64,000 nt of DNA from Odiellus spinosus (Eukaryota > Arthropoda > Arachnida > Opiliones > Phalangiidae), in NCBI GenBank assembly GCA_963920705.1, contig OY987240.1, positions 6,784,766 to 6,848,765 on the forward strand, read 5' to 3'. Positions 21,426-61,953 of this stretch are shown here, in pieces (position 1 is the first letter of the stretch; every line of letters starts with the position of its first letter). The notes beneath the pieces are model-generated. The model was not told where the DNA came from. It did not search any database and saw only the letters and a list, made by a program, of their open reading frames with translations. The translations under genes and the position numbers were made by a program.

Positions 21426-24400
21426 GGGTTAAATTCGGCTAGCGTGTGGGGCGCTCGTTGCACCTGGCTTCTTGAAAAATCTTTAAATTCCCTGACCTGT
21501 GGCAACCCTGTAGTTAGACAAGACTGTTAAGATTGCGAAAATGTTACGTCGAGTACCTTAGCTTAGTGGCCAAGCTGAGTGTTATTCAGGGCTTTTACAT
21601 GGACCTGGAAAACCAGGGGAATTTGCCCAAAAGTTTGAAGTAGGCGAATTTGAAAATGAGCCCAAAGGGTCAGGGAAATTAAATTGGCACATGTAAATTA
21701 GTTATTTATGATTGTATGACCAAATTATCAGAAGTGGATCACATAGGAAGTTTACATCTCCGCTCCGCTTCAAACCCGTCTTTGACTGGTAATCTAGATT
21801 TTTAGGCTACAACTCGCAAAATTCGGCACCGATTTCTAGGGTTGCCAGCTAGCGAGAGAAACGAGAACTAAATCAAGGCGTGTCTTAATTCTATAAGCCA
21901 ATCATGCCCTAACTAAAATTTCACTCCCCCTCTCTCTTAGAGGAAACGAGACTCTAGCTGAAGATAGACTGCGCTGCGGCGGCAGCGGCGTGACCGTGTG
22001 TTTTCAGTTTCGGCGGCGGCACACCTAGTTTTTTTACCAGGCTACGGCGTAAGCCATGAACTGCGGGGTTTATCGGCGTTTGTCGCGTCTCTCAGCTCTC
22101 CCATAAACGAGCCTGAGCAGAATTTTCAATTTTACTTTACTTTTGTGGTTTCCCACGGACCTAAGGTCTCTCACCCAGACTCACCGTACCTGCACTTCGT
22201 GGCCAGTCGACAGCCACTTACCCATGTTGGCAGAGTCACGTTAAACTTTTTTAAGTCTTACGGAAGTTATGGAACATATTTAAAAGTTAAACTGCGCGTA
22301 ATCGGTGGTGTCCGAGTCTACACCGGAATACAAGTCACGTGCTCAAACTGTTAGTCATTGGCCGAGATATTTGTGGGCTGGCCTTATATGCCCCCTCTGC
22401 AACTCCCCCTACTTTAGAATTTCACGAGAGAGGAAAAACGAAAAATGCAAATTTTGAAGGGGTGCTGAAAATTTAAACCCCTTCACGCAAATCTTTCCGT
22501 CAAAGATGGTTTTATAGAAAGCATTACAGATGTAAACTCCCTATGTGATCTGCTTCTGAAATTATAAGTTATTCTAAACCAAAAATATTTGCTCACGTTA
22601 ACAAAACTTATATTAGATAATTAACACAACTAAATTAAAAAAAATTGGGAAACAAGTAAAAGTCACAGCTTTCATATAATGCTGCGCCTGATTTCTAGAA
22701 TTTCTTCAACAGCCTGGATAAGTCCAATTTTTTTCCTAGGAATTGACAAAGTCTTATACCTATTTAAATTTTAATTTAATAATATAGTATATAAATTAAA
22801 TCTAATTATGACTCGTTTTTAACAATAACTTAAGTATAATGAAATAAAGCTAAGCTTGATAATACTCGACTAGACTCGAAACACGTCCCGATACTCAATA
22901 AGCAAAATTTTCAAGACTCTGAAATTTTTTATTTCCAGAAATACAGAACACTTGCAAGTGGCTAGCCTCTTGTATTATTTATACTTGACTAAATTATCTT
23001 TATTTCCAGATCTACGTACGCAAGCAGCCTACCAAATGATGGACAAATCATTTGTGGGAGTTATTTTTTCCGTATTCAACCAAGATAGTGGCAACGCTAA
23101 TTCCAAAGTAATTTGCATTGCTATAGGAATGAAAAATGAGAAAACCATAAACTAAATAAATTCCCCATACAGGCTTCATCCAATCAGATTCAGATAACGT
23201 GCTTCCAGTCTGTTAATCCAAATCCTGAGGGTGAACAACCCCAGTTAGTTTTTTACATCTCTCATGCGTCTGTACGTACAAAATCGTTATCCACGGAATT
23301 CATTTTTTTTTTTTTTGTCAGGTACGAAAGGCTAGAAGTACCGATTTGTATCGTTCCATCTGAAAAGCTCAACGATCACTGCCTTGACAGGCTTCTAGAA
23401 TTGCCAAAGATTTTAGTTTTAGAAGAAGAAGAATTATACAAATCTGCGCTAAATTATTCAAACCAAGATCTTTTAGCCAAGCTCAGCAATGACGCTGGTA
23501 AGAAAATGCTTATTTTTTCTTCTGAATTCTACCAAATTAGTAGTTTTACTTTGAGCGTCCCATACTAAAAAACTATGGTTTTTGATTGATTTAAAACAAC
23601 TGTTCAAATGTTGGTTTGGGGTCATCACTAAAACTTGACCTCAAAAATATAAGTCTTCAACTACTCTAACAATTAAAAAAATAAGATAAATAAAAAATAA
23701 CGAAAATTAACTAGATTACAATTATCTTATTGATTAGTAGATCCATAATTATTGGAGCTTTGTTGATTACAAAAAATAATTATTACTATTAGCTAGTAGA
23801 ATACAATCCGCAGCGAAAGAGGAGTCGAACTCCTTTTCTTACCCTTTGACACACTCACTCTATTTATGTGGTAACTCCTTTTAAGGAAGAAATAAAAAAT
23901 ATGGTGCATACGGCTTTTGTTGCGGATTAAAAAAGTGACATGGAGGTAGTATATTGCTATAAGAAAAGTTTGTTCATTTAGAGCAGACGACCCAATTATT
24001 TTTTAAGCGGACGGGACTGACATTCGAGTGGTATGTCTTTAACGTTAATCTATGGGGATTTTAACGTAATTTTGGAAGTTTGTAAATTACACTATATTTA
24101 CCGGTATTCAAAAAACTATATTTGAATTGGTGATTTTTATATTCGGAATTTCTCAAATCTTATTTATGACTAAAAATAACCTTACACTTGTGAGAAATGA
24201 AATGTTGTTCATGATGCGCTTAACCATTCAGTGACTCGGACATGTTGTTAACGATGCCAAGCACTACTGATTAAGAACTCAATTAAAGCAACTGGCGGCG
24301 CCCCTGTGAAAGTCTCTTCCCTGATGCACGCCAAATATGCCTTGCCAAAGGCAGGAGCCAATGGTACCCACATACACTTAAATCCCTCTTTCCTGCCATT

Positions 24401-24806
24401 GGTTAAGTAAATTAATTGTGTAGCAGGAAAGCGGGCATTTTGGAGAAACTAGAACCGCTAGTTGCTTTAAAATTGAAACTTTATTATATTTTTTTTATTA
24501 AACTTGCGGCGAGGTTAAACCATCATTTTTGAACTCTCCAGGTTTACATCTTTTAAAATCTACTGTTTTTGTTATGGTACACTAAAATCCTACCAATAGG
24601 AAGAGTCAGAGTTGAAATAATGGCCGTTAAATATTTCAGCTTTTAGTAGAGCTCTTTGCCGAATAGTAGAAACCGTAAGTGCTCCTCTACATCAAACCCT
24701 GATTGGAATAAACCAAAGAAAAGATGCTGAGATTTTACGCAAAGAAGAAAAAAAAGAACTATTGGTGCGAGAGTGTAAAAATTTTTGTCAGAATAATTTG
24801 AATTAA
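2450..24806 (+). CDS. BRCC3: BRCC36 / BRCC3 Lys63-specific deubiquitinase (7 exons)
   Basis: BRCC36 is the JAMM/MPN+ zinc protease of the BRISC and BRCA1-A complexes and cuts Lys63-linked ubiquitin. Exons read from the sequence: 2450-2554, 2627-2746, 2817-2904, 23010-23107, 23173-23243, 23322-23497, 24640-24806. They total 825 nt, giving 274 residues plus TAA, close to the length of insect homologues. Family landmarks in order: EVMGLLIGE (residues about 27-35), LRRSDKKKDRVEISPEQL, the catalytic HSHPHITVWPSHVD with both His, Ser and Asp, YQMMDKSFVGVIFSVF, YERLEVPI, LELPKIL and a Lys/Glu-rich helical tail. The start ATG is the first in the reading frame and gives the family N-terminus. Intron 2 is U12-like and intron 3 is about 20.1 kb. 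The exon 5 donor (after 23243) was chosen because it restores phase before YERLEV and is the least certain junction. Homology is by recall of the family, not by search. Confidence 0.93.
2747..2816 (+). other. U12-type AT-AC intron (BRCC36 intron 2)
   Basis: The donor is ATATCCTTT directly after the GAA codon. A branch-site-like TTCTTTAAC lies at 2793-2801. The intron ends in CAC at 2816, 16 nt past the presumed branch A at 2800. These three signals match the minor-spliceosome AT-AC consensus. No AG lies between codon 40 and the conserved RPMRV codons, so no ordinary GT-AG intron can work here. Removing these 70 nt restores phase and gives exactly the seven residues that human BRCC36 has between AE and RPM. 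Confidence 0.85.
3365..3475. repeat. AT-rich TATTTTAAATAC-type repeat
   Basis: Several degenerate copies of TATTTTATTTTAAATAC occur here. They are related to the 27-bp array at 5430-6110. The two patches flank the foldbacks between them and could be ends of one older element, but no boundary is clear. The preceding stretch from 2905 to 3364 is intron DNA without a recognisable feature. Confidence 0.5.
3759..4472. mobile_element. Foldback element with telomere-like core
   Basis: Left arm 3759-3950 starts TTGAAGAATAGGTCCCGGTA and is mirrored by the right arm at about 4257-4472 ending CCTATTCTTCAA. The arms share GCGAGAAAAATTATGGTG-like stretches, a GGAGGAAACGGCGGTAGA motif and a poly-A/T patch, with many substitutions, so the element is not very young. 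The loop carries about 145 bp of TTAGG-type repeat. No protein is encoded and no clear target duplication was found. Confidence 0.75.
4069..4213. repeat. Interstitial TTAGG/TTTGG telomere-like tandem repeat
   Basis: Mostly (GGTTAGGTTT)n with stretches of plain GGTTA units, in an uninterrupted run of about 145 bp. Arthropod telomeres are typically (TTAGG)n. Here the unit alternates TTAGG with TTTGG and lies in the loop of a foldback element inside a gene intron, so it is interstitial and not a chromosome end. Confidence 0.85.
4611..4876. repeat. Foldback with ~103-bp arms
   Basis: Left arm 4611-4713 (TCGAATCGAGAAATGAGTGT onward) is inverted at 4773-4876, with a loop of about 60 bp. The arms match well apart from scattered substitutions. 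The 74-codon frame at 4728-4952 runs through the hairpin and is not a gene. Confidence 0.7.
5430..6110. repeat. 27-bp AT-rich tandem array (~25 copies)
   Basis: The unit is TTTTAGTATTTTATTTTAAA followed by TACTTTA (27 bp); the first copies are 28-bp variants with AAAATACATTA. Each unit contains an AGTATTT...AAATACT dyad, so single strands could form many small hairpins. There are no spacers and no coding frame. Confidence 0.9.
6410..7069 (-). repeat. Gypsy 3' LTR
   Basis: 660 bp, nearly colinear with 20809-21462 apart from three short indels. Both end in the terminal motif TGTAACCGGCAG / GCGCTCGTTGCA on the + strand. Preceded at 6406-6409 by CCTG. Confidence 0.9.
7100..8995. mobile_element. 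Penelope-like retroelement fragments forming a palindrome
   Basis: On the - strand, 8090-7385 encodes reverse transcriptase (FMDDVFLI-type catalytic motif, YLPFLDILL, VYQKPTHAKTFL) followed by a GIY-YIG endonuclease (GVIYQIKC, IYIGQTKR), the diagnostic Penelope combination. On the + strand, 8374-8631 repeats the reverse transcriptase piece (GLAMGNQLSAPIANLVME, FMDDVFLI) and continues with an AAHIKLKK tail matching the sequence near 7200-7390. The two halves are head to head with arms 8011-8295 and 8323-8606 and a 27-base loop. The right half lacks the middle of the element. It lies inside the Gypsy between its purine tract and the end of its pol region. Confidence 0.82.
8911..8951 (+). ncRNA. 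Hammerhead-ribozyme-like motif of the Penelope element
   Basis: CTGAGGA is followed by a GGGT/GCCC stem-loop, then GAAA, then a short AGCT/AGTT stem and a C at the expected cleavage position. This echoes the CUGANGA...GAAA hammerhead core known from Penelope-like elements. One extra A lies between CTGAGGA and stem II, and stem I pairs poorly (mainly A/T pairs after two mismatches), so it is probably a degenerate copy. Confidence 0.35.
9012..12459 (-). pseudogene. Gypsy pol region (protease, RT, RNase H, integrase), fossil
   Basis: Read on the reverse strand from 12459 downward. A protease-like segment (ILGQDFLEDWGMKIDF) is followed by reverse transcriptase (VYLDDILIA, near 11700), RNase H (TDHKALQWLF, VVADALSRAPL), an integrase zinc finger (HPLAGHRGRDKTI) and integrase core (GVDIIGPFPISRKGYRYLIV, LSDRGTQFVS). 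A long C-terminal region with GREPRLPWD and PKWSGPYRI closes the series. The order is that of Gypsy-type elements. The region is broken in several places. Confidence 0.88.
12931..13120. mobile_element. CCCTTAC-ended foldback MITE, copy 1 (in the Gypsy)
   Basis: 190 bp with ends CCCTTACCAAAAAAAGTTAG and its inverse CGTAAGGG, flanked by TG on both sides (12929-12930, 13121-13122). The body is built of alternating AAGTCTTGGGGAAGTCTT-type segments and their inverses, so nearly the whole element can fold on itself. Other copies lie at 38611, 41191, 41559, 56421, 61779 and 63051. The reading frames through it are products of the repeat. Confidence 0.88.
13518..13863 (+). repeat. Copia 5' LTR
   Basis: 346 bp, matching 18417-18762 base for base as far as I can read. 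A GTGGG...CCCAC dyad (TATGTGGGTCATTTAGGCCC) lies at about 13714. The 77-codon frame inside it occurs identically in the other LTR and is not a gene. Confidence 0.93.
13990..18277 (+). pseudogene. Copia gag-pol coding region, about one break
   Basis: The parts come in Copia order (integrase before reverse transcriptase). An N-terminal Gag is followed by two CCHC knuckles (CFKCHKLGHMAREC, CSNCNKKGHTSQDC) near 14680-14800. Protease (VYDSAATHHF) follows, then the pre-integrase motif (DLWHKRLGHPS), integrase (HSDVWGP, FIDDYSRK, RTDNGLEY, NGLSERLNRTL), reverse transcriptase (RYKARLVAQGF, VYVDDMIVL) and RNase H (DASYASDEDDRKSTSG, KHIDVRHHFVRD). The protease has Ala where the usual D(S/T)GA motif has Gly. 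It is close to intact for a fossil. Confidence 0.93.
18417..18762 (+). repeat. Copia 3' LTR
   Basis: Second copy of the 346-bp LTR, preceded by a purine tract and followed by the CATAA duplication. The Gypsy gag sequence resumes directly after it. Confidence 0.93.
20809..21462 (-). repeat. Gypsy 5' LTR
   Basis: 654 bp, partner of 6410-7069, with a long T run (about 30 bases) near 21391-21424. Relative to the other LTR there are about 25 substitutions and three short indels. Followed by CCTG at 21463-21466. Confidence 0.9.
21729..22558. mobile_element. Non-autonomous DNA element, 7-bp target duplication
   Basis: Inverted ends of about 30 bp: CAGAAGTGGATCACATAGGA at the left and its imperfect inverse ending GATCTGCTTCTG at the right. 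Both sides are flanked by AAATTAT (21722-21728 and 22559-22565). The interior is much more GC-rich than its surroundings at about 21955-22110 (GCGGCGG runs). The 118-codon frame at 21998-22354 matches no family I know. The duplication length suggests hAT or a P-like superfamily. Confidence 0.65.
22559..23009. other. End of BRCC36 intron 3, no further feature seen
   Basis: AT-rich intron DNA ending in TTTATTTCCAG before exon 4. Apart from the acceptor and a pyrimidine stretch I see no recognisable gene or repeat boundary. Confidence 0.5.
24287..24466. mobile_element. TTAA-flanked MITE with AGCAACTRGCGG ends
   Basis: It lies in BRCC36 intron 6. The left end AGCAACTGGCGG and right end CCGCTAGTTGCT are inverted copies. 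TTAA lies immediately outside both (24283-24286 and 24467-24470). The ends share the AGCAAxTxGCGG core of the 10.1-kb element at 26026-36128, so this 180-bp unit looks like its internally deleted derivative. A short TGCCAAAGGCA dyad and inverted CAGGAGCCAATGG/CCATTGG-type pieces lie inside. Confidence 0.7.
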
Positions 24807-26021: not shown

Positions 26022-26151
26022 TTAAAGCAACTAGCGGGCCATGCTTCTGAATTTTTCCTCACTAGGTAACTATTCGCAGTTTTGAATGACGGGGCTAAAG
26101 AGCGTATCAGTTACCATTGGTCAATAGTTAAACCAAACCCAAACCCTTAAA

Positions 26152-26310
26152 CTTCGCCCGGGAAATACAAAACGAACAAGAGGTTTGAGAGGCAAGTAAT
26201 TTCGCCCGGGAAATACGATCAGGAGTTTTTAGAGGCAGGGTAATTTCGCCAGGGAAATACAAACAAGAGTTTTCAAAAGGCGTTTTAATTTCGTGCGGGA
26301 AATATAAAAC
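26152..26310. repeat. Subterminal direct repeats of the 10.1-kb element
   Basis: The motif TTCGCCCGGGAAATAC occurs at about 26153, 26201, 26244 and 26290 (the last two with one or two changes). Spacing is 43-48 bp, and each copy is followed by AACAAGAG-like sequence. They lie 130-285 bp inside the left end. Subterminal repeats are often transposase-binding sites; that role is inferred. Confidence 0.7.
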
Positions 26311-26872
26311 GGGAGAGCGAGCTTAGAATCGAATTACGTTACGTTTTTATTTTAAATATGTATTTTTTTGCCGTTGATTATATTACTTTTCTATGCATTA
26401 CTGTGGGAAATTTCAAAGTTACAAATGATGTATTGTTTTATAATAAAAGGCCGAAAAAGATGGATATAGGTATAGGCCTAAACCTTTTCCCCATCTAATT
26501 AACATTGATTAATTAAGGCTATAATTAATTTTCATTAGGGGTAAGTTGAAAGTTATCAAAGAAAGAATAGTTCCGTAGTATTCAAATTAGTGGAATTACC
26601 TCCAGGGATCTTTTCTAAATAGTATTCAAGCCCTCCTAAAATCCTCATATCCTAATTTTGAACGCTTATTTTAGATTAGAACTTATTTTATTATCATCTT
26701 TGATTGGAACATTTCACTGTTCCACTGGAACCAATTAGTGAATAGAAAAGATGAATTATAAGCGTTTTAAAATATAATTTTTTAGCTTACTAAAATTTAG
26801 AACTTATACTATATTTATAACAAAATTGGCATAAGATAAATATTTAACATGTGTATTATCACATAGTTTTTA

Positions 26873-29800
26873 CTATCCACAAAACAAAATTTTACCCAAA
26901 CTAATCATTGTAGAAACCCCTTCTAAAGCCCTTGTATATGCATCAGGGCTAGGAAAACGCCACCTAATACTCAAAACGCAGCATGCTGGCAAAACTAATC
27001 TGTTGCCCACCCCTAACCTCCCAAAAAGCCAAAGACACTGGTTCGAATAGGCAGCGAACCAAAGCCTATTATTTTCAATATTTAGCATATCACGATCTAA
27101 TAAAAGTTCATTTCTCATCCTCATATTGAGAACAAGCACGAATGGCTCTAAGCACAAAAGGCGAAATTCGGGCAAGTTTGTAAGGCAGTCATCATCTCTA
27201 CAACATTTATTTTCATCCTCTCTTGGCATAGAAGCGCAGTTGCGGCAAATACATTTCCTCAAATTTGAGGATGGTTTTGCCCTTGGTGGGCTTGGATCCT
27301 TCGTGTAAGTTGGCATTATATTACACATAGAGCTTTGGGCGGCTGCGGAATACAAAGGTTTTTGAGAGTGTGGAAGTGTTGACACAACTGGTAATGCCAT
27401 TTTTTTCTTGCAAGTCCGGAATTTCTTCAGCACAACTTTCAATGACATTCATAGCTATTAGAAATATTGTTAGAGAGTATTCATAGCTATTAGAAATATA
27501 GTTATACAAATTATAGGTTTAACATTGTTTGAGGCTTAACTTCTTTTGCCATAGTTACAAACTCTGGCAACAACTTGCCAAGACGCAAGAGAAGCCGATC
27601 TTTCGCATTAATTGACATCTTTGTGACAATTTCTTAAAATTAGAAATGTTGATTTTTCCTATAGTCTATAATTCCCCTTAAAATAAGTAGGTATAGCCAA
27701 AATTTAAAAAATTTGGACACTAAGTGCTGCTACTATTTTATATCAATACACATACCCAAACCTTTTCCACAAAAATTCTAATCAAATACAGATAGGAGTG
27801 TAGGTTTTCATGGAGGTTCTAAGCTTGTGAAAGATTATAAATAAACTGACCTGAACATTAACAGCGTGTTCTTCTAAACTTCTAATTAAATTGTCCATAT
27901 AATGAGGATCAATTTCAGACATGGCATCGGGTAGCACTTTGTTGCCTTTAGACATTTTCTTTTTTTTTTTTTTTTTTTTTTTTGCGTGAAGGGTTTCTTT
28001 CTATAGCGCTGCAATTTCGGTTGTTGAGAGTCCTCCTACAAAAATTAGGCTCAAGTAATTATTGCTACTACATAGCGAACGGATCTAACCAAAAAATTTA
28101 AATTAAGATTTCAACAACACTAATTTATAATAACGTAGAAACTGGAAACGCCAAAAAAACGAACTCAACAACTACGCAAAGGACTCATGCTAAATCGTTG
28201 AAACTTACCTTAAGTGTATTTTTTCGTATGGTCAGTAGTTTCTTTTTCTTCTCACTAACTTCCGCCTCCTAAAACAAATTTATTATAAAGGAATATAATT
28301 AAAATGTGGTAGCTTAAACTCACATAATTGTCTGAAGAACAATTTGTTTCAACTCTATGGTGCTTCCTAAGTGGCACAAATTTTTCAACAAAATTTTCCT
28401 AATGATAAAACGGTTTTGGTTAGTCATAATATACCAGAAAAATAATTACGTTTAAATAAATGTTTTTACCTGCTCATATTCAGTTAGTTCAACTTCATGG
28501 TAGTCATTTTCGACATACTGAATTATGTCTTCTGTCTAAAATACAGTTTTAATATGTTAGGACTTGCAACAAAATATTATGCTAATAAAGTTTACAGGGT
28601 GTTTTACTGTTTTAGAAAGGTCTGGAAAAAATGAAGGGGGTTTTTCGTGGGGTCAGACTGAGTGAAAAAGGTTCATGAACCTTTAGTCTCACGCATTGGA
28701 ACATCACATATATCGTATGTATTATCAAACCCAGGAAAAGCTCTATAGAAAGTTGAATGAGGACTTATTGGGGTAGAAAAGCTCTATAGAAAGTTGAATG
28801 AGGACTTATTGGGGTAGAAATTATGCAATAGTAGTTTGGTGCTGGTATATTGTAATCAGGCTCCCGCTCCAGAAAGCATACTTAAGCTAATATTTTGTAA
28901 ACGCAATTCCACTAACTGTACAAAAGTATGCCCATGTAGAAAATACGGAAAGATATGCCCTGCTATGTGCGGAGAGTGAATGGAATATATTGCCTTAACT
29001 CTTGCCGCGAAGTTAATGATACTGATGACGAAGATATTGACTAATGTCAGCTAATACAGGGTGTTTTAGAAAGGTCTGGAAAAAATGAAGGGGGTTTTTC
29101 GTGGGGTCAGACTGAGTGAAAATGGTTTATGAACCTTTAGTCCCACGCGCTGCGTTGCGTAGTTATGAGCCCTTGAAAATAGTCCTCAAAAATACGAAAA
29201 ACGACCGTAAGGTGTAGGTAAGATTGTGCCTTTGACCATTATTGTTTTTCAATTTAATTGTGCATAAGCTAATTATCGAGAGATAAGTGAAACAAGGTGT
29301 TTATTAACTAAAAAAAGCGTATCAACATGTTTAGGAGTGTCAGAAGTACTTGAACTCAAAGTGTGGTTGTTACGTGTGTTTCGGGTGTTGAAAAGGGAAT
29401 TTTACAAGACACCATTATTAATTACCATAATTATCAATTGTTTAATAATAGGAATCAGAAGTATTTACAAAAATTGTTCGAAATGCATTCCGTCAGCTTT
29501 GATACACACTTGAGCCCGTCTAATAAATGATTGTCTAACTCGTTCGAAGATCCCTGGTGTGTTGCGTATGGTTTCGCAGGCGTCAATAATCCTTTGACGT
29601 AGATCTTCCACGTCACGCACTTCACTAACATAAACTAAGTCCTTAAGGTGGCCCCAAAGAAAGAAATCATAAGGGTTTAGGTCCGGAGATCTGGCTGGCC
29701 ACGCAACCGTTCCGCCACGGCCCATCCACCTCAAAGGGAATGTTTCATTAAGGAAGGCCCCAACTAGGAGAGAAAAATGAGGTGGTGCACCGTCGTGCAT

Positions 29801-31925
29801 AAACCACATGTCTCGTCTCAAGGCCAATGGTTCGTCTTCAAGAAGCTCGAACAGATTGTCTTGAAGAAACGGGAGATGCGCCTCACCATTAAGCCTTGGC
29901 TGCAAAAAGAATGGTCCAATTAAATGGTCACCAACAATTCCGCATCAGACGTTTAAGCTGAATTGAACTTGGTGAGCCCTAACACTTGCAGCGTGGGGGT
30001 TTTGTTGCGCCCACTGATGCTTGTTGTGCATGTTCAATATGCCATCACAGGAAAAATTGGCCTCATCCGTAACTAAAAGGCTTTGGGGTAAGTTGATGTC
30101 TTGATGTTGACATCGTTAAGGGCTTGGACCTTCTGTAGATGGTAAGGGTGAAACTGATGAACTCGGAGTATTCACCAGATAAGAACGTGACTTACTCCTA
30201 ATTGGCGTCCAACTCGCCTAGTGCTTATTCCTGGATCTTCGTCGAAAATGGTGAGTACTTGTTCCTCCACCTCTTCAGGAACGTCTGGAGCTACAGCACC
30301 TCGTCCCGCCAGTTGGATATGTCCACCTTTCCTCAAACGTCTGTCGACAGTTTGGATAGTTTGTTCTTTTTGCAACCAAGGCTTAATGGTGAGGCATATC
30401 TCCCGTTTCTTCAAGACAATCTGTTCGAGCTTCTTGAAGACGTACCACTGGCCTTGAGACGAGACGAGACATGTGGTTTATGCACGACGGTGCACCACCT
30501 CATTTTTCTCTCCTAGTTAGGGCCTTACGGATGAGGCCAATTTTTCCTGTGATGGCATATTGAACATGCACAACAAGCATCAGTGGGCGCAACAAAACCC
30601 CCACGCTGCAAGTGTTAGGGCTCACCAAGTTCAATTCAGCTTAAACGTCTGATGCGGAATTGTTGGTGACCATTTAATTGGACCATTCTTTTTGCAGCCA
30701 AGGCTTAATGGTGAGGCGCATCTCCCGTTTCTTCAAGACAATCTGTTCGAGCTTCTTGAAGACGAACCATTGGCCTTGAGACGAGACATGTGGTTTATGC
30801 ACGACGGTTCACCACCTCATTTTTCTCTCCAAGTTGGGGCCTTCCTTAATGAAACATTCCCTTTGAGGTGGATGGGCCGTGGCGGAACGGTTGCGTGGCC
30901 AGCCAGATCTCCGGACCTAAACCCTTATGATTTCTTTCTTTGGGGCCACCTTAAGGACTTAGTTTATGTTAGTGAAGTGCGTGACGTGGAAGATCTACGT
31001 CAAAGGATTATTGACGCCTGCGAAACCATACGCAACACACCAGGGATCTTCGAACGAGTTAGACAATCATTTATTAGACGGGCTCAAGTGTGTATCAACG
31101 CTGACGGAATGCATTTTGAACAATTTTTGTAAATACTTCTGATTCTGATTATTAAACAATTGATAATTATGGTAATTAATGGTGTCTTGTAAAATTCCCT
31201 TTTCAACACCCGAAACACACGTAATAAACCACACTTTGAGTTCAAGTACTTCTGACCAAAGTTAATGATTGCACACTCCTAAACATGTTGATACGCTTTT
31301 CTTAGTTAATAAACACCTTGTTTCACTTATCTCTTGATAATTAGCTTATGCACAATTAAATTGAAAAACAATAATGGACAAAGGCACAATCTTACCTACA
31401 CCTTTTCGTATTTTTTAGGACTATTTTCAAGGGCTCATAACTACGCAACGCAGCGCGTGAGACTAAAGGTTCAAAAACCTTTTTCACTCAGTCTGACCCC
31501 ACGAAAAACCCCTTCATTTTTTCCAGACCTTCCAGAAACACCCTGTATAGGTAGATGGATAAAAACAGGCTACTGATTAGGTTTTGGACTTTCACACTCC
31601 TGTAGTCAATTTTGATTGCCAAGAGTATCAGCATTCAGCAAATGGTCGGAGCGACCAAAAAAATGTTTCAGACATTTCCGAAATATAATGACAAAATAGT
31701 ATTAGATTTTTTTTACCTTTTCTCTTCCATTATCCATATATGGTTCAGAATCTGAATCTTCCTTTGAGGACAGACCCGTAGAGGCCTCATCCAACTCTTC
31801 TTCGGAATTCGGTTTTTACATTCCAGATGAATTTTTCCGACAGACCCACACGAGCATGAATCACTACAATTTTTACCCATTGCTTTACAAGTGCAAACAT
31901 TTCTACCTTTCATTCTGTCACAGTT
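26873..31925 (-). CDS. P2X7 ballast-domain (P2RX7_C-like) protein gene, multi-exon
   Basis: Seven reverse-strand coding segments are supported: about 31717-31925, 28470-28535, 28324-28398, 28209-28268, 27851-27958, 27542-27619 and about 27395-26873 (stop at 26873-26875). The five middle ones have GT..AG borders and all are phase 0. The last carries the zinc-ballast signature of the P2X7 receptor tail: KCICRNC, NKCCRDDDCLT, NNRLWFAAYS, GRLGVGNRLVLPACCVLSIR and a closing FPSPDAY. No channel or transmembrane part is present. The first segment has a Cys-rich block (CTCKAMGKNCSDSCSCGS) and then an acidic EEELDEASTG run in a different frame, so its 5' structure is uncertain and may be broken. The mariner lies in the intron between segments 1 and 2. 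Function is unknown; DNA or nucleotide binding is only a guess. Confidence 0.62.
28595..28707. mobile_element. Solo mariner end
   Basis: CAGGGTGTTTT...AGAAAGGTCTGG and the following GTGGGGTCAGACTGAGTGAA match the terminal 110 bp of the mariner at 29057-31545, with an 8-9 base internal duplication near the tip. It stops at about 28707, where unrelated DNA begins. It is the remnant of a separate copy or a deletion product. Confidence 0.7.
28736..28818. repeat. 40-bp tandem duplication
   Basis: AAAAGCTCTATAGAAAGTTG...TTGGGGTAG occurs twice head to tail with no visible difference, which suggests a recent duplication. Confidence 0.85.
28856..29034 (+). pseudogene. CXC-type cysteine-rich C-terminal tail, fragment
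   Basis: A forward frame reads APAPESILKLIFCKRNST, then CTKVCPCRKYGKICPAMCGE; after a one-base frame change it continues NGIYCLNSC and an acidic EVNDTDDEDID end with a stop. The CxCRKxGxxCxxxCxxC layout resembles tesmin/TSO1-like CXC tails that close many invertebrate transposon-associated proteins. It lies between two mariner ends and has no upstream exon that I recognise, so it is a stranded fragment. Confidence 0.5.
29465..30414 (-). pseudogene. Mariner transposase, left copy
   Basis: The N-terminal helix-turn-helix region (VEEQVLTIFDEDPGISTRRV) lies at 30172-30414 and the catalytic half at 29465-29905 with FMHDGAPPHFS and ARSPDLNPYDFFLWG. There are 41 residues between HD and the Asp of NPYD, as in the DD41D lineage of the Tc1/mariner group. 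The reading frame is not continuous between the halves and the first N-terminal helices are missing. The ORF ends MHFEQFL plus stop. Confidence 0.8.
30692..31132 (+). pseudogene. Mariner transposase, right copy (3' half)
   Basis: 146 residues nearly identical to the left copy, with changes such as GAPPHFSLL to GSPPHFSLQ. Upstream, 30386-30690 holds a rearranged duplicate of the same segment (QPRLNGEAYLPFLQ) and the preceding ASVRAHQ region, so the N-terminal half is absent on this side. Confidence 0.8.
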
Positions 31926-32104
31926 GTGTTTGCAAGCACAATTTACTGCCCAATGGACCCTAATTTCGTTTCCATTATTTTACGAGACTTTAACAACTTC
32001 CAGAAGAGAGAGTTGTTAGGATGAACTTTGTACTTTGCCCCAATTTCATAAAGTTACCACTAGGGGCGCTATACATAGAATGACGTCATACCCAAGTAAA
32101 GGTG

Positions 32105-32134
32105 TATATACACTGCTGTAGATAGTGGTCAGTT
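32105..32134 (+). promoter_or_regulatory. TATA/initiator core promoter in the 10.1-kb element
   Basis: TATATA at 32105-32110 and an arthropod-type initiator TCAGTT at 32129-32134 place the presumed +1 A (32131) 26 bp after the TATA start. A TGACGTCA CRE-like site lies just upstream at 32081-32088. It points toward the transposase-like gene and sits between the two divergent genes, so it may serve both. Activity is inferred. Confidence 0.5.
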
Positions 32135-32896
32135 CTCTCCCAGTTCTCAAGCTAGACAGGCGTCTGCTCTGATAGTTATAGTTTTTATGAGGTGTTAATC
32201 CTCTTTTATTAACAATGTTTCCTGAAGTTATATATTAATTAAACGTGAATTATTTGAGAAACCCGTTGTATTTATTGCGGAATTTAATTAATATTCCAAC
32301 AAGAGTATAAGTAAAATGGCCGCCGTAAGCTGATAAAGAAGTTTTCGGACCTTTCTGGTAAATCCTAAAAGTAAAGTCTTGAAGAACTTGAGTGGGAGCT
32401 TGGTCACGTGATATGACCTTTCTAGGAAATGGGAATTGGGCTTTGAGCAGCTGCGAATAAAAGAAACCAGTCAGAGGTCCACCTTCACGTTTGTTCGAGG
32501 TATTGGACAGTACAGGCACGCTAGGGCATGGCTAGGGGTAGCAAAAAAGCTCCTTTCCTTCAGGTTTTCTACAGTTTAAAAAATATTTGGCAATTTTGCA
32601 CTTGAAAAAACTAGAATGGGGGGGGGGGATGCAGGGTAAGAAGAATATAGACTTTTTTCGAAACGAAAAATAAAAAGTAGAAATCCCCCTCCCTCCCCCC
32701 CGTTTCTCAAACGATACACTTGAACTTTCTCTAGAGACTAGTGAGGCTAGCGAGTAGCGAATTCTCGAAAGCAGTGTACGATGAAATAAAGTGGCCAGGT
32801 ATACCTGATTCGCGGAACAAGGATACGCTGGACAGTGGACTTCAGGTTTGTTCTAATGGGTTGCAGGTGATGTACTGAAAAATAACCGTCTTGGAT

Positions 32897-35256
32897 ATGG
32901 CAGCTAAAAGTAAGTTTATATTTAAATAAATTTATGTTGTTATGCCTATAATATAATGAATTCGTGAATCTTTATGGTACTATTAGGTAGAAAATCCAAA
33001 GTAAGCATCGGAGATGCATTTCCTTTGTGGCAATTGGAGCGTGGCAAGCGTGGAGTGACAAATGAACGTTTTGCTCAGTTACTACTTAGAAAATTGTATG
33101 TTTCCCTTTCCCATGTTATAAAAATTATCTATCTCTTGTTGAGAATATTTAAATTTCAAGGTTAAGGGTGTCAGTATCCACTAGTTCTGTGGAGGAGTCA
33201 CAACCAAAGCCATGCTCGGTCTCATTTGGTAGGCAAACAAACATTATTCATAAAATTGATACTTCAACAATGGTAGATATTTCATTCCAAAACCCAGCTA
33301 CTTACACTCGTACATCAAAAGCTCGTAAGTTATAGTATATTAATCTGATATTTAAGATATTTCATTTACTATTCTATTACAGCATTGGTGAAACATTTGG
33401 AATTGGGTGTTTGTATTGAATCAGACTGTGAAACTCCTGAAAAGGGCGTTCAATGTGGTTTATCAACTCCTTTCAAAACACCCAAGAAACGTAAGATATT
33501 TTTGGATGAAATTGATTTTCCCCTATGTAAGCATTTATTTCTTACTTCCATCTCATTCCCCTTACAGTATTTTCATGACCACGTTTTCCCACCCCATTTG
33601 GCTAACTGTAGGCTCCCAATATCCATAATCATTTTATTATATTTTAAACAGAATCAAGTCAACAGAAAAATGTGATGTTGAATTAGAAAGTGGGTTGGAA
33701 ATAATGGGTGAAAATGAATTAAACTTTTCAAACAGTTTTACGGATGGTGGCGAAATAGATAATGAACTTCAAAAGGTTTAAATTTAACAATATCTTTTTC
33801 CTTCTAGTGATTACTTTTTATTAATCGTTCTTAACAGACACTGACAGATTTTCCAGATAGAGACGATTATGACTCCCTCATAATCGAGAAAACTGAGGTA
33901 TTTTACATTAACATTGAGTTATTAATAATCTTTGCACTTTCGATTTTGATATTATTAAAATATTTATTAAAACTAATTGAGTCGCCCTATTGAACAAACT
34001 TCTGTCGAAAGCACAATTTCAGACTCTTTGACCCTTGTCCACCTGCCTACGCTAATTCAGTTGGTAAAGAAGGCCAATGGTTCTAAGTGTTCAGGATGTA
34101 AGGAAGAGATTGAGTACACTACAAAAAATTTGGGAACAGCTGTTTTAATTAATTGAACTTGCAAAGGGCCTGGGAGTGATGCCAAAAGACATACAAAGGT
34201 AGTCTAAAAAATTTTGGAATATTATATATTTTAATTTTTATTCAAATTTAATTAGGGTAATTGGGCCAGTCAGCCATTTGTCAATGGAATTGCATCTGGT
34301 AATTTAATTGTAGCCAGCAGCATTCCATTATCTGGAAACATGTTTGGGAAGATTGCTTTATTTATGAGGCATGCAAAAATTTTGTTTTTCAAGAAGGATA
34401 CTTACAATAAGTAAGTTCAAGTTTTTTTTTTTTACTTCCTCTAGCCCTTGCACCTGACAAGGAGACTACCCGAGGTGTTTATCGCCGATTTTGTCTGCTA
34501 TAATGTAAGATATGAAAATCCTCGAAAGGAGACGACGCACTACCCATTAGTTTGGCCATGGCAACCGAAAACATTTTTGGCCATTTCAATCGAAAAAATC
34601 TCCATTGAAAAAAGCATGGGATTTTCTCGGTTTTACAGGGGGCTACCTGTGAAACATTTTTAAAAATTTTCAAATTGTTTCGAAATTGTCAAATGGGCCA
34701 AATGGTTCACATCTAGGTAGAATTCATCTAGTTTGGGTAAATTGGGACTTTGTTGGGCTAAAATTGGCATCATTTATGGGAAAAATATTGAAAAGAAATT
34801 TCTTTTTTTCGACGAAGGCGCTTAATGGCCAAAAACGTTTTGGGTTGCCATGGCCAAACTAATGGGTAGTGCGTCGTCTCCTTTTGGGAATTTTCATATC
34901 TTATATAGGTCTACATTATAGCAGACTTTGGACAAAATCGGCGATAAACAACTCGGGTAGTCTCCTTGTAAGTTTTAAAGTTTATGACACGCGTGCTAAA
35001 CTTGCTGCAATTGATCACAATTATCACGTAGGAAGGCCTCAAGCTAAAACGAAAGAAGGAGTTTAATGGTAATTAGTAATAAGTTTGCATTTTCTTGACT
35101 TGACCTATCTAATAATATTTAAACCGTGTAAAGTGATAGCAAAGCCTATAGCAAAAGGAGCAAAACCTGGCATATTGTCCCAGTTTACGAACCAAAACCA
35201 TACATGTATATTGACAAACTAATGTTGAAAATCTTTGAGAAAAGAATGAATTTCAA
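32897..35256 (+). pseudogene. Kolobok-like transposase gene, decayed and lacking its core
   Basis: Exons from ATG at 32897: 32897-32909, 32987-33095, 33161-33324, 33383-33490, 33666-33775 and 33838-33897 join in phase (MAAKSRKSKVSIGDAFPLWQ start). Later pieces are about 33980-34199 (CSGCKEEIEYTTKNLG), about 34256-34410 (WASQPFVNGIASGNLIVASS), about 34979-35060 (RAKLAAIDHNYHVGRPQAKT) and about 35129-35256 (YSKRSKTWHIVPVYEPKPY). The SQP..GNL and LAAIDHN blocks are hallmarks of a widespread invertebrate and fish DDE-transposase-like family. About 350 residues that should lie between them are gone; a foldback sits in their place. TGA replaces an expected Trp after VLIN, and the acceptor near 33985 is out of phase. 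The Kolobok assignment is tentative. Confidence 0.6.
34457..34969. mobile_element. Foldback element inside the transposase-like gene
   Basis: Left arm from 34457 (ACAAGGAGACTACCCGAG) is mirrored by the right arm ending 34969 (CTCGGGTAGTCTCCTTGT). Each arm is about 150-170 bp and shares GGAGACGACGCACTACCCAT and its inverse. The short frames at 34448, 34479 and 34869 all run through the arms. No target duplication was recognised. It lies where the catalytic exons are expected. Confidence 0.75.
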
Positions 35257-36132
35257 GGTATAGAACAATTTGATCCATTAGGGTTGACGATAGTATTCAT
35301 AAAAATACTAAAAAGTTCATTTAAATTTGTCGAATTTTATATCTGAATCGGGAGATATGAAAACAAGATTAGAAATGATGGAGGAAGATCCAAAAAGAAT
35401 TCACCCCAAATAGAGGAATGGATGACTGCCCAGAAAAAAGTACGCTCAGAGAACTTCAACAAAGTCGGTTCTTAGCTTCAAATAAGAGCCGCAGATTCAT
35501 ATCCTACTCATCAGATGAAATTTAGGCCTGATGTTATTTTCTCATAATATTGATTTGTGTACAATAAAAATTTAAATATTAAAATTAAGGCTTGAAAATT
35601 TATTACCGATTAAAGCCAATACCGCGTCAATTATTAAAAACTATCAAAGAAAAATGTTTAACACCTGATCTAACAATCCCACTATGGCATAAAAATGGTA
35701 TTTTGAAATATACCTTTGATAATTTTTCAACGTTATTCTAATGAAGTATTTATAGACTCTATTAACTCTATTAATTCATGTTAGAGAGTGAAAAAGGTTT
35801 AAATCCATCCATTCTAGTCGCCCAATCTAGTTATTCACCATGGTACATGATAAACTCTTTTCAATTAAATTACAAAATATTATATTAAATGTTGACTATA
35901 TGGAGCATTTCAATTTGTTACGTTTATAATATCTACTTTCTGAGTCGTGTGTGTCACAGGTTGGCGCAAAAGGGATTAAAGGGTGGGAAATTGAACTGAA
36001 TTCAAGATAAGCAAACTCAAATTCGGCGGTAAATTTTTCTACTCACAAGAGGGCAGCACCTCTTGAAGACTTTTTTTGGTGCTAAGAGGGAAAGTGTCTA
36101 AGGGTGAACTCAGGACCCGCCACTTGCTTTAA

Positions 36133-37618: not shown

Positions 37619-40600
37619 TTAATATAGAAGACTTCCAAAGCCGAATGTCCTTTTCATACTGTCCCAATAATATCTTCTCCAACCTTCTCTAGTACATTCC
37701 ATTTCGCTTTTTGGAACGTTTGTTTGCGTTAGTTGAACAACCGTACTATCTTCCATTTGGTTAATTTCTATAAGCACTTGAGAGAAGTGACCATCCTGGA
37801 AATAAAAAAATTAGTCTACATCCACTTCCAAAATTAAAGGGGAGGATTACATCATTAAAGGAACCAGGAAATCGGTTTTCCAAATGTCTTAATTTAGATC
37901 AGGTAAAATATACGTTAGTTCAAATCAATAAGCTATTCAATGGCCAATCACCCTTAAAACCAAGTTTAAAGCCAATTCAATATTCGCTTCCACTCTAGTG
38001 TAACCGCGGCAACGCTCGCTCCAACATTCTTTGCTATCAAACAGAATTGGTCGCTTTGCTTAAAATCAAGCAGAAGGGTATTTTCCGAGTGCATAAGTGC
38101 ATTATATTACAGGTAATAGCTAGAATAATATCTTTTTTATTTATAATTAAATAGCTAAAAATGAACTCTTCAACATGACACCTCAAGATAACTAATTAAG
38201 CTTGGCTATAGAATTCCTTTTCAAAATGACCAAAACGACCTTTACTTGTATCATAAGCCTATTAATTAACCCGTAAGTTAAAAACGAGAGTCGTTTTAGC
38301 GTTAAGATTATGACTGGCTAATCTCGCGACTCAAATCCATCAGGCGGCGGTAGCTCGAAACTCTTGGGACATCCTGTTTCCTCTCAAGAGGAATGACGCG
38401 GTGGTAGGGAGAACTAACTAGATTTTTCCGCGAGGTGGCGTAGAGCTTCAAATTTCTATCTCTCCTGTTTAGTGCCAAATACGAAGGGCTCTATGCGAAC
38501 TCAAACATACGGGTGAAGAATTAATAGGCTTATGCTTGCATATAATTACTGGACACCTCCATTTTAGATGTTTTTTCCATTTTTTTCAAGTGATTATATG
38601 CCTTAAAACTCCTTACAGAAAAAAGTTAGTCTGATCTGAAGAGGTCTTCAAGAACGCTACAAAAGTCTTGGGGAAGTCTTTAAGACCTCCCCAAGACTTC
38701 TTAACGTAATGGAAGACTTCCCCAAGACCTCTTAAGACTACATAAGACACCCGAAAGACTTCCCCAAGACCTCTTAAGGCTAACTTTTTTTGGTAAGGGC
38801 TGTTTCATTTTAAATCCTCAAACTCAGGTTTACTGGTCTCTTTAACTAAAAATTGGGGGCCTATTTAGAGCCCATTCATCAATTGATCATAATTAAACTC
38901 ACCGGCCAAGATTTAAACCTCCAGTTTTGAACTATTTTCTTGTTGGGAATCTAAAAAAAGAAAAATAAAAGATCAAAAAGACTTGAAAGATGTCAAAACT
39001 AATAATATGATAATCTAAAACAAAAACGTTTTAGAGCAACTATGTGCCTTCGATTGCTTAAGATGGTTTAGTTTGTCTATGAAGTTTTTCCACATCAAGA
39101 TAAATGACGTCCACCCGATCCCCCATCATCGCAAAAGCCTCAAAAAGGAGGGTTTGGGAAATCCACAGTCACAAACCTCCTTTCAGCTCTTTCAAGCTGG
39201 TTTGAGGCTTACAATGATGAGAATTGGGTGAACATCATTTATCTTGATGTAGTGAAAGCTTTTGAGTCCATTCCCCACCCTCCAATCTTATGGGATTGAG
39301 GGTTATGTTTATGACTGCATGGAGTTCATACTATTTAACAGGTACAGTCCAGCGTGTTCAGGTAGGCCCTGTCCTAAGGGTAGTGTGCTTGCCCCTTCTT
39401 TTTATGATTTACATTATCGAGTTTGTCCACTAGCTCGCTACTTGATCTCTACCATATGGACACTGGAATAACATATCGTGACTATAATCCAAAACAAAGG
39501 ACCAAGGCTTAGCAAGCTAAATAAGTTTTAATTTTCTAAAATGATGTAAATATTATTTTTACCTTTTGAAAATTGATGTTTCGTTTAAAGCACAACTTTT
39601 TTAACACGTTTAAAGACGATTTAATTCCCTCCTCTTAAATAATATTTAATAGAAAACTTTTTGTTGGCCGAAGCGGGGAAATTCGCGAATAGCATTATAG
39701 CAGTAATATGATTTTAAATTGTTCATCGCGCGCGTTCTGACTGGCTGACGATAAAATACTCTTACTCGCTCGTGATTGGCTACTAGTTTTTATGCAAATT
39801 TTAAAAAAATACAGGTCATGCTCGCTGATTTCACCAAGCTAGGCAGCCAAGGCTTAGCATCTGCAAGTTTCGGAACTTTGGAAATTGATTATAAAATAAT
39901 GAAACATTTTTGGTGAGTTATATTATATTTTCTCATTATTTTAGCATTCTTTATCGATTAAAAATAGGTTGTTTCCGCCTTTCATTCTCCCTTTAAGGAG
40001 ATATGACAATTCTTGTATTGTGACCCGGCTCTATCACTGGATTCATGCCTATGCCAGCCGAATTCTGTAAACGTGTAAGCCAAATGAGGGGTAATGGCTA
40101 AATCCTTGTATTTCCACAACTGGTGCATATTTTCTGCTAATATTTTTGATATGCTACTGCCAGAAGTGTGTGTAAAATTTGAAAAAAAAAAAAAAAAAAA
40201 AAAAAAATCCTCCAGCCAATGGTAACATCATTGCTTGATCTCAAATGGAATCACCCATTAGGAACGTCGTAATGAACGTAAAACTTGTTGCTTGAAAGAC
40301 CGCGGCTGATGATGCTAAGACTTCACAGTGATGGAATAATTTTTTATTTCCCACCCGGGTTAAAAACAAGAACACTGAATACACCACTTTGCTCTTCCAC
40401 TGTGCGCATGCCCGCGCTCGAAACGCTTACTAGTGGCGAAAAAAAAAAAACGTTCACTTGGTGAGGCCCTCGTAGTATCCCGCGTATTACCCCATGCAGG
40501 TTTTTTCCCCTGCCATTTTCACCAAGTGTAAGTTCGCCCTATGCCGCTATGGTGCCCCAAGTAATGGTGTATTATTTTAGCATGCATTTTTTTCCTGGAA

Positions 40601-43600
40601 AATGCAACAAGTCTCTGGAAGTCACTTTCAGCAAAGACATCAAAGAGGTGATTACGCCTTTTGATTTTTTTGAAGCAGACGAGCAACATGACTCAATTCG
40701 GGCTATGACAAAATGATCTCGCGCCAAGCTTGCAGGTATAATCACAAGAAATTGGATAAAATCGAGGACTGTTGTTATATACATTGGTTTTACTTTTCAT
40801 TTCAAAATGCTTCCATAGAATTAAAAAAAAAAAAAAATAATCGTCTTTTTCAAAAAAAAAAAAAAAATTAAAAAATAATAATTTGGCCAATACGGTCCAA
40901 ACTGGAAAATACATACAGAATTCGACCAAATAGACCAAATGAGGAAAACTGTTGTTACAGCATTTTACATTTTGATACACTTTTAAGTCAGGTTTTTACA
41001 TTGGATCAAATTCTATTAGTATTTCTTAATTTGGACCTTTTTTTGGCAAAATTGGAAGATTTTCTTGATTAGGTATGCATATTTCCTTGGTTATTCTAGA
41101 GGAGCACATTGAAATAAAAACTGACATCACGCGTATGTATAGTAACAGCGGCGAGAATTTCTTGTGATTAAATTGGTGAGCTTGATGCAACCCTTAACGA
41201 AAAAAGTTTGTCTGATCTGAAGAGGTCCTCAAGAACACTACAAAAGTCTTGGAGTCTTTTAGACTGCCCAAGACTTCTTGACATAATGAAAGACTTCCCC
41301 AAGACCACTTAAGACTTAAGACACCGAAAGACTTCCCCAAGACCTCTTAAGACTAACTTCTTTTTGGTAAGGGTTAGTATTTTTAAGTTTGTAGCTTTTC
41401 TAATTCATTATAAACTAACGATATTTTTTTGGTGACTTTTTTCTCAATATTTTATCATTCTTCATTTATAAAAGTTGTTTCACTCTCCCTTTAACCCCGC
41501 TTGCTAATTGTTTGACAGTGGCATACAAAAGGATTCTATTCACTTTAAATGAAGACATCCCTTACGAAAAAAATTAGTCTTAAGAGGTCTCGGGGAAGTC
41601 TTTCGGGTGTCTTATGTAGTCTTAAGAGGTCTTGGGGTCGTCTTCCATTACGTCAAGAAGTCTTGGGGAGGTCTCAAAGACTTCCTCAAGACTTTTGTAG
41701 CATCCTTGAAGACCTCTTCAGATCAGACGAACTTTTTTCCGTAAGGGATTAGACAGATGCCAGATTCAAACTGACTGTTTATAAAGTTATTATCATATCA
41801 TACCAGCTCTGTGAATATTCCCGTAATGTTTCCTCCTAATAGACTGAATTTTCCATTCTTTTCCAGTTCTATGACGCAATTTCCTTGGGTGAATGCTTGG
41901 ACCATCTAAAAAGAAAAACGAGTCTATTAAATAGTTAAACTAACTGGTCAATGAGTCTTATATTCTACTATATTAAAATTTTAATTATGGTGGTGGCGGG
42001 TAATTCCGTCCGCTTTTTATAAAGTCACCAAGAAAACTCTCCCAATGATAACTGTGTCCAATTTTGGTATATCTTTTTATAAATTGAACTTTCCATAACT
42101 TTGATTAGTCTAACAGACACGAGACATTTTTCAAAGACAGTAGACGTGGCCAATTCCGTCCGGTCTGAGTCTAATCGCCGGACAGTGGAGGTAATGTCCG
42201 TCCACCCGTACATAATCACAGAATATAATTATTCTGTACCCAAAAATTTCAACTACCTGCCCTATCTGGATAAAAACCACCGTTGTAAAAGTTAAGAGCT
42301 ACCAAAATTCATTTTCATATTGCACGTTTTTTATTACAAAATAAATAACAAATTTCAGCTTTAAATATTCATATTTTTCAAAGGCGACTAAAACATCTTA
42401 AATTTTTACACAGTCAAAAACTGAGACATATTATGTTCTAAGCCATTTTTAAAGAATTGTTATGAAACACTACCGCCCTCTATACTGAATTCGCGTTATA
42501 ATATTTACGGCCCTGAAAAAGGTGGGAAAAACAGGCTTTCTGCTTTGAAATTATGGAATTGTCTGCAATCGTCAATGATTTTCAAGCTCGAAAATTCGCG
42601 TTTTAATTAGGTATTTTGAAGTCAACGTTGTTTCGAGTGGACAGAATTGGCCTCTGTCGGTAGTTTTTTCTAAAATTCCATAAATAATTAAGTAAACGTC
42701 AAGATAAGACCGGAGACGCATATTTTGTAGCTAAAGTTCTGGGTTTTCTAGTACTATCGGGTTCGTATCTGTACAATTTCAGTGATTGTTTTTAATCCTT
42801 ATTTCGGGACCTATAAAAAACTTCATCCCCTTAAAATGGCATTAAATTAATGGGAGAAAATGGCTACTTGGTTAACTATAGTTGTATATTAGCCGAACCT
42901 TTTCCAATCGTCTTGAGATTTTTTTTCAGATGGGGCGTTTATCAGTGCCTAAAATAAGTCCTAATTCATTTAACTTGAGCAACCCAAACTAAAGATTCAT
43001 ATTTTTTAACCAAGGTGGACGAAATTAGCTTTGGACGGAATTTCCCGCCACCACCCTAATAATAATAAATCGTGAAATAAAGTGCGATAGTTGATGTATT
43101 TTATAAATTAATTTTCATTTTAGTATTGCTGCTTTTTAAAGTTGCTTCTCTATTGAACGATAAAAAGTCCCTCAAGGATTTGTGACAATTATTGAAAAGG
43201 AAATAAAATTAATTGATGAGGCGCCCAAAATTAGTCATGTCTACTTTTTAAAGTGAGGCTGGTACGAATTTTTCATCAACTCCAATAGGCCATATTATAA
43301 ATTCCCATGGCATGCTGGGTAACTTTTCTAGTTCGGTATAGTTCAGATCCGTTAATCAGAACTGCCAGTTGGGCTGTTTTCCGCCTAAATTGGGCTTTGT
43401 ACGTTTGGATTGGGCGAAAATTTCAAAACGAATCTGGCAACTTTTAGATCTACTAATAACCTCGTATGAGGGATTACCTAATTTATTTTTAGCATAACGA
43501 AAGTTTACATTGAAATCTTTCCGTATTATTTTTAAACCTATATGTTACGTTTTATTATACAAATAAGCTTCTAAACCCTAATTTTGTTTATGAAATAGTC

Positions 43601-56157: not shown

Positions 56158-56420
56158 CTCCCCCTCTTTGACATAATTAGCAATACTACAATTAATATTA
56201 TTTTTCAAATTGCAACATTTTTACACAATTATAGAAATTATTTTTGCATAAACATTTAGTTAATATATCCGCGACATTATCAGCTGACTTTACATATTGT
56301 AAATTAAATTCTTTTCTTTCTAGGTTTTCTCTAATAAAATGAAAACGTAAATCAATATGTTTTGAGAGTTGATTTTCCATACTATTTCTAGATAATACAA
56401 TAGCAGATTGGTTACCACAT

Positions 56421-56614
56421 CCCATACAAAAAAAAGGTAGTCTTAAGATGTCTTTGGGAAGTCTTTCGGGTGTCTTAGGCAGTCTTAAGAGGTCTTGCAA
56501 TGGGAAGTCTTATATTATGTCAAGAATTCTTGGGGAGGTCTTAAAGACTTCCCCAAGACCTTTTTAGTGTTCTTGAGGACCTCTTCACATCAGACTAACT
56601 TTTTTCGGTAAGGG
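56421..56614. mobile_element. CCCTTAC-ended foldback MITE, copy 5 (in old Copia)
   Basis: Starts CCCATACAAAAAAAAGGTAG and ends TTTTTCGGTAAGGG, flanked by AT on both sides (56419-56420, 56615-56616). It lies inside the old Copia, so the family was active after that Copia inserted. Confidence 0.88.
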
Positions 56615-61778: not shown

Positions 61779-61953
61779 GTTAGTCTGATCTAAAGAGGTC
61801 CTCAAGAACGCTACAATGTCATCAAGAAGTCTCGGGGAAGTCTTAAAGACTTCCCCAAGACTTCTTGACATAATGAAAGACTTCCCCAAGACTTCATGAC
61901 ATAATGAAAGACTTCCCCAAGACCTCTTAAGATTACATAAGACACCCGAAAGC
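61779..61953. mobile_element. CCCTTAC-family foldback, copy 6 (tips lost)
   Basis: The body AGTCTGATCTAAAGAGGTCC ... ATAAGACACCCGAAAG matches the other copies and includes a repeated AAGACTTCCCCAAGACTTC block, but both CCCTTAC tips are missing. The reverse frames of 94 and 120 codons here come from the repeat. Confidence 0.8.

Follow-up and report, generated by a model that had tools for sequence, protein, structure and literature searches.

The Kol0 lineage of Kolobok transposons is characterized by TTAA target-site duplications, 5'-RR...YY-3' ends and two genes, one for the transposase and one for KolX, a protein with the ballast fold of the P2X7 receptor (PMC9587614, available text). In that same text, Kojima & Bao 2022 conclude that P2X7 arose when KolX was fused to a P2X4-like gene, and they regard zebrafish Nanor as a likely domesticated KolX; the Kol0 hosts they name include vertebrates, annelids, cnidarians and sponges. 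They also report KolX-like proteins, without most of the seven conserved cysteines, from a few piggyBac families, and state that the 5'-RR ends set Kolobok apart from piggyBac. Among the full-length Kolobok copies of Xenopus, all 10 listed in Table 5 of PMC6004289 have AG ends, 9 of 10 are flanked by TTAA on both sides, and lengths run from 6.8 to 13.9 kb; the available part of that paper states that Kolobok transposases usually carry a THAP domain. Ballast domains have been described in the arthropods Ixodes and Myzus, in nematodes, molluscs and cnidarians and in one sponge by Rump et al. 2020 (PMC7016195), the available text of which contains no word starting with 'transpos'. Here, we describe a unit at positions 26026-36128 of a 64-kb window (the whole stretch of DNA analysed, from contig OY987240.1 of Odiellus spinosus), which is very probably a decayed, non-autonomous Kol0-like Kolobok copy.

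The unit resembles Kol0 elements of the Kolobok-1_XT type in its TTAA sites, AG ends, transposase-like gene and ballast gene with zinc-site cysteines, but differs in showing no catalytic core and in being interrupted by nested insertions (PMC9587614, available text). It likewise shares AG ends, TTAA and a size in the range of 6.8-13.9 kb with the XKol elements of Xenopus, and short relatives with the T2 miniature inverted-repeat transposable elements (MITEs), which are considered to be of the same superfamily; the frog transposases, however, have a THAP domain and, in part of the cases, intact DDE motifs, neither of which we found in the unit (PMC6004289, available text). The first-pass annotation of the window had proposed a TTAA-flanked mobile unit in which a transposase-like gene is accompanied by a gene for a ballast protein with an accessory role. 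The analysis supports this proposal, and the boundaries given for the unit were exact. Its suggestion that a mobile element is a plausible source of the ballast domain is also the stated view of Kojima & Bao 2022 (PMC9587614). Its idea that the architecture might be undescribed does not survive, as this is the architecture of the Kol0 lineage; because the link between Kolobok and the ballast domain was published in 2022, the unit is an ordinary further copy and no new element type (PMC9587614, available text). The nested insertions, a nearby 180-bp MITE and the missing catalytic core had gone unnoticed.

The unit nevertheless adds one case of a P2X7-type ballast domain inside a TTAA transposon. 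It is in line with the view, already in the literature, that the receptor tail came from a mobile element and that animal ballast proteins form part of Kolobok transposons, and annotators would do well to weigh a Kolobok KolX before calling such genes P2X7 receptors.

Ends and target site

The facing inverted ends between the two TTAA copies read AGCAActaGCGG and AGCAAgtgGCGG. End-sequence matches lie at 26020 on the plus strand (GGTTAAAGCAACTAGCGGG) and at 36134 on the minus strand (GGTTAAAGCAAGTGGCGGG); from 26022, TTAA is followed by AGCAACTAGCGGG and, on the minus strand from 36132, by AGCAAGTGGCGGG. The two ends are identical at 12 of the 16 bases after TTAA, and the outer arms of the unit align well over 16-24 bases only. 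To gauge chance, the TTAA sites were held fixed and the remainder was shuffled in 200-base blocks (20 shuffles), a control for base composition only. Pairs no more than 12 kb apart that reached 12 of 16 numbered 61 in the window against a mean of 45.75 in the shuffled sequences. By itself, a TTAA followed by an inverted arm of loose similarity is thus not significant, because such combinations are frequent by chance in this AT-rich window, and we rejected paired ends alone as proof of an element, given that the shuffles yield many equally good 16-base arms.

The end motif itself is significant. TTAAAGCAANTNGCGG has four perfect matches in the 64 kb against 0.01 expected. Two of them are the ends of the unit, from which the motif was defined; the remaining two, at 24283 (+) and 24470 (-), are independent and stand in facing orientation around 180 bp that make up a MITE of the same end family 1.6 kb from the unit. 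Because an independent, TTAA-flanked MITE carries them, the ends of the unit belong to a mobile family. Both the unit and the MITE have the termini AG...CT, in agreement with the 5'-RR...YY-3' rule of Kolobok, and both show its TTAA duplication. Four subterminal direct repeats inside the left end are possible transposase-binding sites. Short copies such as this MITE would probably be mobilized in trans by intact relatives.

We also joined about 200 bases from each flank and compared the product with the window, in which no empty site was found. The left flank resembles a repeat present locally, being 68% like 45676-45868 and 73% like 46260-46354, the match stopping about 20 bases short of TTAA, while the right flank has no match in the window longer than 24 bases. 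Outside the window, the end motif plus one further G is present in 33 stretches of the viral_contigs collection. In none of the 33 do both orientations occur within one stretch, and two of them share one contig, both in a single repeated stretch resembling coding sequence; we put all 33 down to chance, by judgement.

The ballast gene and its transposase-like neighbour

The two genes of the unit lie on opposite strands, in the divergent arrangement first proposed (table 1). The ballast open reading frame (ORF), on the minus strand, matches Pfam P2RX7_C over residues 29-170 (E 9.9e-16, 58.6 bits, cut-off 23.5). Searched against PDB, it matched P2X7 chains (best E 1.7e-6). Its cysteines, in the order CxCxxC, CC, C and CC, align with those of P2X7. 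Presumably these include the seven zinc ligands of the receptor. Tyr550, Arg578 and Phe581-Pro582 of P2X7 also have counterparts in the alignment with the PDB chain, whereas Arg546-His547, in the numbering of that chain, are replaced by Trp-Phe. Judged by its sequence, the unit would thus carry the second gene with a P2X7 ballast fold that typifies Kol0; a single-sequence structure model of the ORF (predicted local distance difference test 39) was too poor for use. Compared with the C-terminal ballast of P2X7 and with Nanor-like proteins, the ORF has the P2RX7_C domain and the cysteine pattern in common, but its gene lacks the P2X channel part, lies inside a transposon and has the Trp-Phe substitution (PMC7016195, available text).

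The ballast frame begins with ATG and is immediately preceded by a stop codon. A frameshift in the gene is possible, because the frame neighbouring its start also looks coding. Two possible upstream exons have open frames, and we looked for an in-frame join between them and the ballast frame and found none. A cysteine-rich frame further along the minus strand may perhaps be another upstream exon of the gene.

The transposase-like gene, as the first-pass annotation claimed, is multi-exonic, and eight exons can be written for it; the name itself found no backing in Pfam, where no transposase piece matched a family above cut-off. The gene is damaged: exon 7 contains a stop, and the frame is broken where exon 4 meets exon 5 and where exon 6 meets exon 7. 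The C-terminal pieces (AAIDHNYHVGRPQAKTKEG; WHIVPVYEPKPYMYIDKLM), like exon 8 (GNWASQPFVNGIASGNLIVASSIPLSGNMFGKIALFMRH...), we take to be Kolobok-transposase-like, a likeness that no tool returned. The place expected for the catalytic core, between the N- and C-terminal pieces, is taken by a 518-bp foldback.

Table 1. Features of the unit and of other sequences in the window (window coordinates).
Feature	Position	Strand	Remarks
180-bp MITE	24287-24466	.	ends AGCAACTGGCGG / AGCAACTAGCGG; TTAA at 24283-24286 and 24467-24470; non-autonomous
Left TTAA	26022-26025	.	target-site duplication
Left terminal inverted repeat	26026-26040	+	AGCAACTAGCGGGCC; 5'-AG start (purine-purine)
Four subterminal direct repeats	26147-26311	.	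around TTCGCCCGGGAAATAC; spacing 44-48 bp
Ballast frame, KolX-type gene	26873-27448	-	open, 191 aa; P2X7 ballast domain at about 26939-27364
Possible upstream exon of ballast gene	27541-27618 (approximate)	-	MSINAKDRLLLRLGKLLPEFVTMAKE; putative
Possible first exon of ballast gene	27851-27955	-	MSKGNKVLPDAMSEIDPHYMDNLIRSLEEHAVNVQ, then GT; putative
Further piece of mariner-like unit's end	28595-28694		
Mariner-like unit	29057-31545	.	TA-flanked; two inverted copies of a transposase fragment, 95-99% identical
Cysteine-rich frame	31713-31979	-	CACKHNC...CTCKAMGKNCSDSCSCG; no Pfam match (E up to 10)
Solo-LTR-like insertion	32014-32301	.	288 bp; TGTTAG...CAACA; AGAGT on either side
Transposase-like gene	32897-34410	+	eight exons; GT/AG borders placed by eye
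Exons 1-4	32897-32909, 32987-33095, 33161-33324, 33383-33526	+	
Exons 5-8	33652-33775, 33838-33897, 33982-34198, 34256-34410	+	
Foldback (MITE-like)	34455-34972	.	518 bp; between N- and C-terminal transposase parts
C-terminal transposase remnants	34980-35530	+	VYDTRAKLAAIDHNYHVGRPQAKTKEG; KTWHIVPVYEPKPYMYIDKLMLKIFEKRM; LRELQQSRFLASNKSRRF; differing frames
Right terminal inverted repeat	36114-36128	-	AGCAAGTGGCGGGTC (minus-strand reading)
Right TTAA	36129-36132	.	target-site duplication
Repeat family, six places	12930-13120, 38611-38803, 41190-41373, 41544-41747, 56417-56616, 61779-61935		

Probable assignment to Kolobok and its alternatives

All 52 ORFs of at least 50 aa that overlap the unit were scanned against Pfam with E limits of 1 or 0.1, and P2RX7_C was the sole match to pass its curated cut-off; neither a piggyBac transposase domain nor any other known transposase domain therefore competes for the unit. 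The best weak match among the transposase pieces was to the Pgp3 C-terminal domain (E 0.0094, ORF 33153-33335), which we take as chance. Six typed pieces, five of them transposase-like and the sixth the cysteine-rich frame, gave nothing against Pfam at E up to 10.

These scans bear on the idea that the unit is a piggyBac-superfamily element with a KolX-like accessory gene, moved by the seamless cut-and-paste of a piggyBac transposase. Known piggyBac families of this kind share with the unit the TTAA target and a KolX-related accessory gene, but we detected no piggyBac transposase domain in any of the 52 ORFs, most of the seven cysteines are absent from the KolX-like proteins of those families whereas CxCxxC, CC, C and CC all align here, and the AG ends of the unit are of the 5'-RR type that marks Kolobok off from piggyBac (PMC9587614, available text). 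We consider this origin improbable.

A host ballast gene, comparable to Nanor, might also lie by coincidence between a pair of Kolobok MITEs or half-elements with TTAA flanks, without the 10 kb ever having moved as a single unit; this is very unlikely, too. In its favour, ends of this family do occur nearby, in the MITE only 1.6 kb from the unit, the ballast frame is open for 191 aa beside a dead transposase, and the outer arms align well over no more than 16-24 bases. Set against this are two ends that face each other correctly, each with TTAA on its outer side, and N- and C-terminal transposase-like parts beside precisely the type of gene known from Kol0 (PMC9587614, available text). That the host has retained and put to use the ballast gene since the death of the transposase, a domestication in progress like that of Nanor or P2X7, has hardly any probability: an open, ATG-started 191-aa frame with P2X7-type cysteines would suit it, lying as it does next to a transposase that is interrupted by a stop, has lost its frame in places and shows no core, but a single copy cannot demonstrate selection, the other coding-like frame at the start hints at a frameshift, we found no way of joining the possible upstream exons to it in frame, and the odds of host use are lowered by the stop directly before the frame and by Trp in place of Arg546, a residue described as remarkably conserved across ballast proteins (Rump et al. 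2020, PMC7016195, available text).

Several observations weigh against a decayed Kol0-like copy as well. A Kolobok-type transposase would have a DDD/E core with C/DxxH and a zinc finger. The catalytic core and zinc finger on which Kolobok phylogeny is based were not seen in the unit, and none of the transposase pieces has a Pfam family to its name. No THAP domain was found in the 52 ORFs, where a domain split by introns could escape the scan. The full-length element is known from one copy. Searches of non-animal collections confirmed no relatives: for the ballast ORF, 3 pattern-matched stretches in viral_contigs and 63 in genome_contigs yielded none, and phages gave no match, while for exon 8, the 166 stretches matched in viral_contigs and the 364 in genome_contigs were likewise all left unconfirmed. 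Kol0 membership is likely because the ends, the target site and the KolX partner all agree with it, and it is not proven because the transposase core is missing. From the same three features we infer that the transposase was of Kolobok type.

If the unit is such a Kol0-like copy, its history may be sketched as follows. In an intact relative, the transposase would excise the element at its AGCAA...GCGG ends for insertion into a TTAA, which would be duplicated in the process, and KolX would be a zinc-binding, ballast-fold protein serving the element, perhaps through binding to DNA or to the transposase. The present copy would first have inserted into a TTAA and later lost its catalytic core, with a stop and frame breaks arising in the transposase gene. 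Invasion by a mariner-like unit, an LTR (long terminal repeat) element now reduced to a solo LTR, and the foldback would then have expanded it from approximately 6.3-6.8 kb to 10.1 kb. Such a copy would no longer be capable of moving itself.

Nested insertions and other features of the window

Much of the 10.1 kb is accounted for by the mariner-like unit and the solo LTR. Subtracting these and the foldback leaves approximately 6.3-6.8 kb by simple arithmetic, depending on whether 28595-29056 is counted as nested. The mariner-like unit matched Pfam DDE_3 at no better than E 0.15, below cut-off. Within it, 29417-31180 form a near-perfect foldback, the 656-nt arms being 99% complementary and separated by 452 nt. 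Between the mariner-like pieces lies a short cysteine-rich frame, CKRNSTNCTKVCPCRKYGKICPAMC, at 28866-28980 (+), which we take to resemble the tail of another transposon protein.

Away from the unit, a Copia-type retrotransposon at 57656-58471 (-) carries, ahead of its reverse transcriptase, a stretch like a methyl-CpG-binding domain (MBD; Pfam MBD, E 1.5e-16). A diverged Copia-type retrotransposon at 13981-17121 (+) has a corresponding region, the two aligning with 38% identity over 189 positions. Its whole ORF gave no MBD match at E 0.1, and the aligned stretch given alone scored 18.3 bits (E 0.0018), short of the 21 bits required by the cut-off. By title or abstract, nothing on a Copia element with an MBD module appeared among the literature matches listed. 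By analogy with the chromodomain of other retroelements, the MBD-like stretch may be a chromatin-reading module.

The window also contains a tandem array of GGTTAGGTTT at 4072-4210 (13.9 copies, 96% matches), reminiscent of an interstitial telomere-like repeat. A repeat family of approximately 160-200 bp, with units like AAGACTTCCCCAAGACCTCTT, is found at the six places given in table 1, which are approximately 75-96% alike. Finally, 7202-8785 hold an inverted pair, approximately 93% identical, that looks Penelope-like by eye, with reverse transcriptase and GIY-YIG-like frames.

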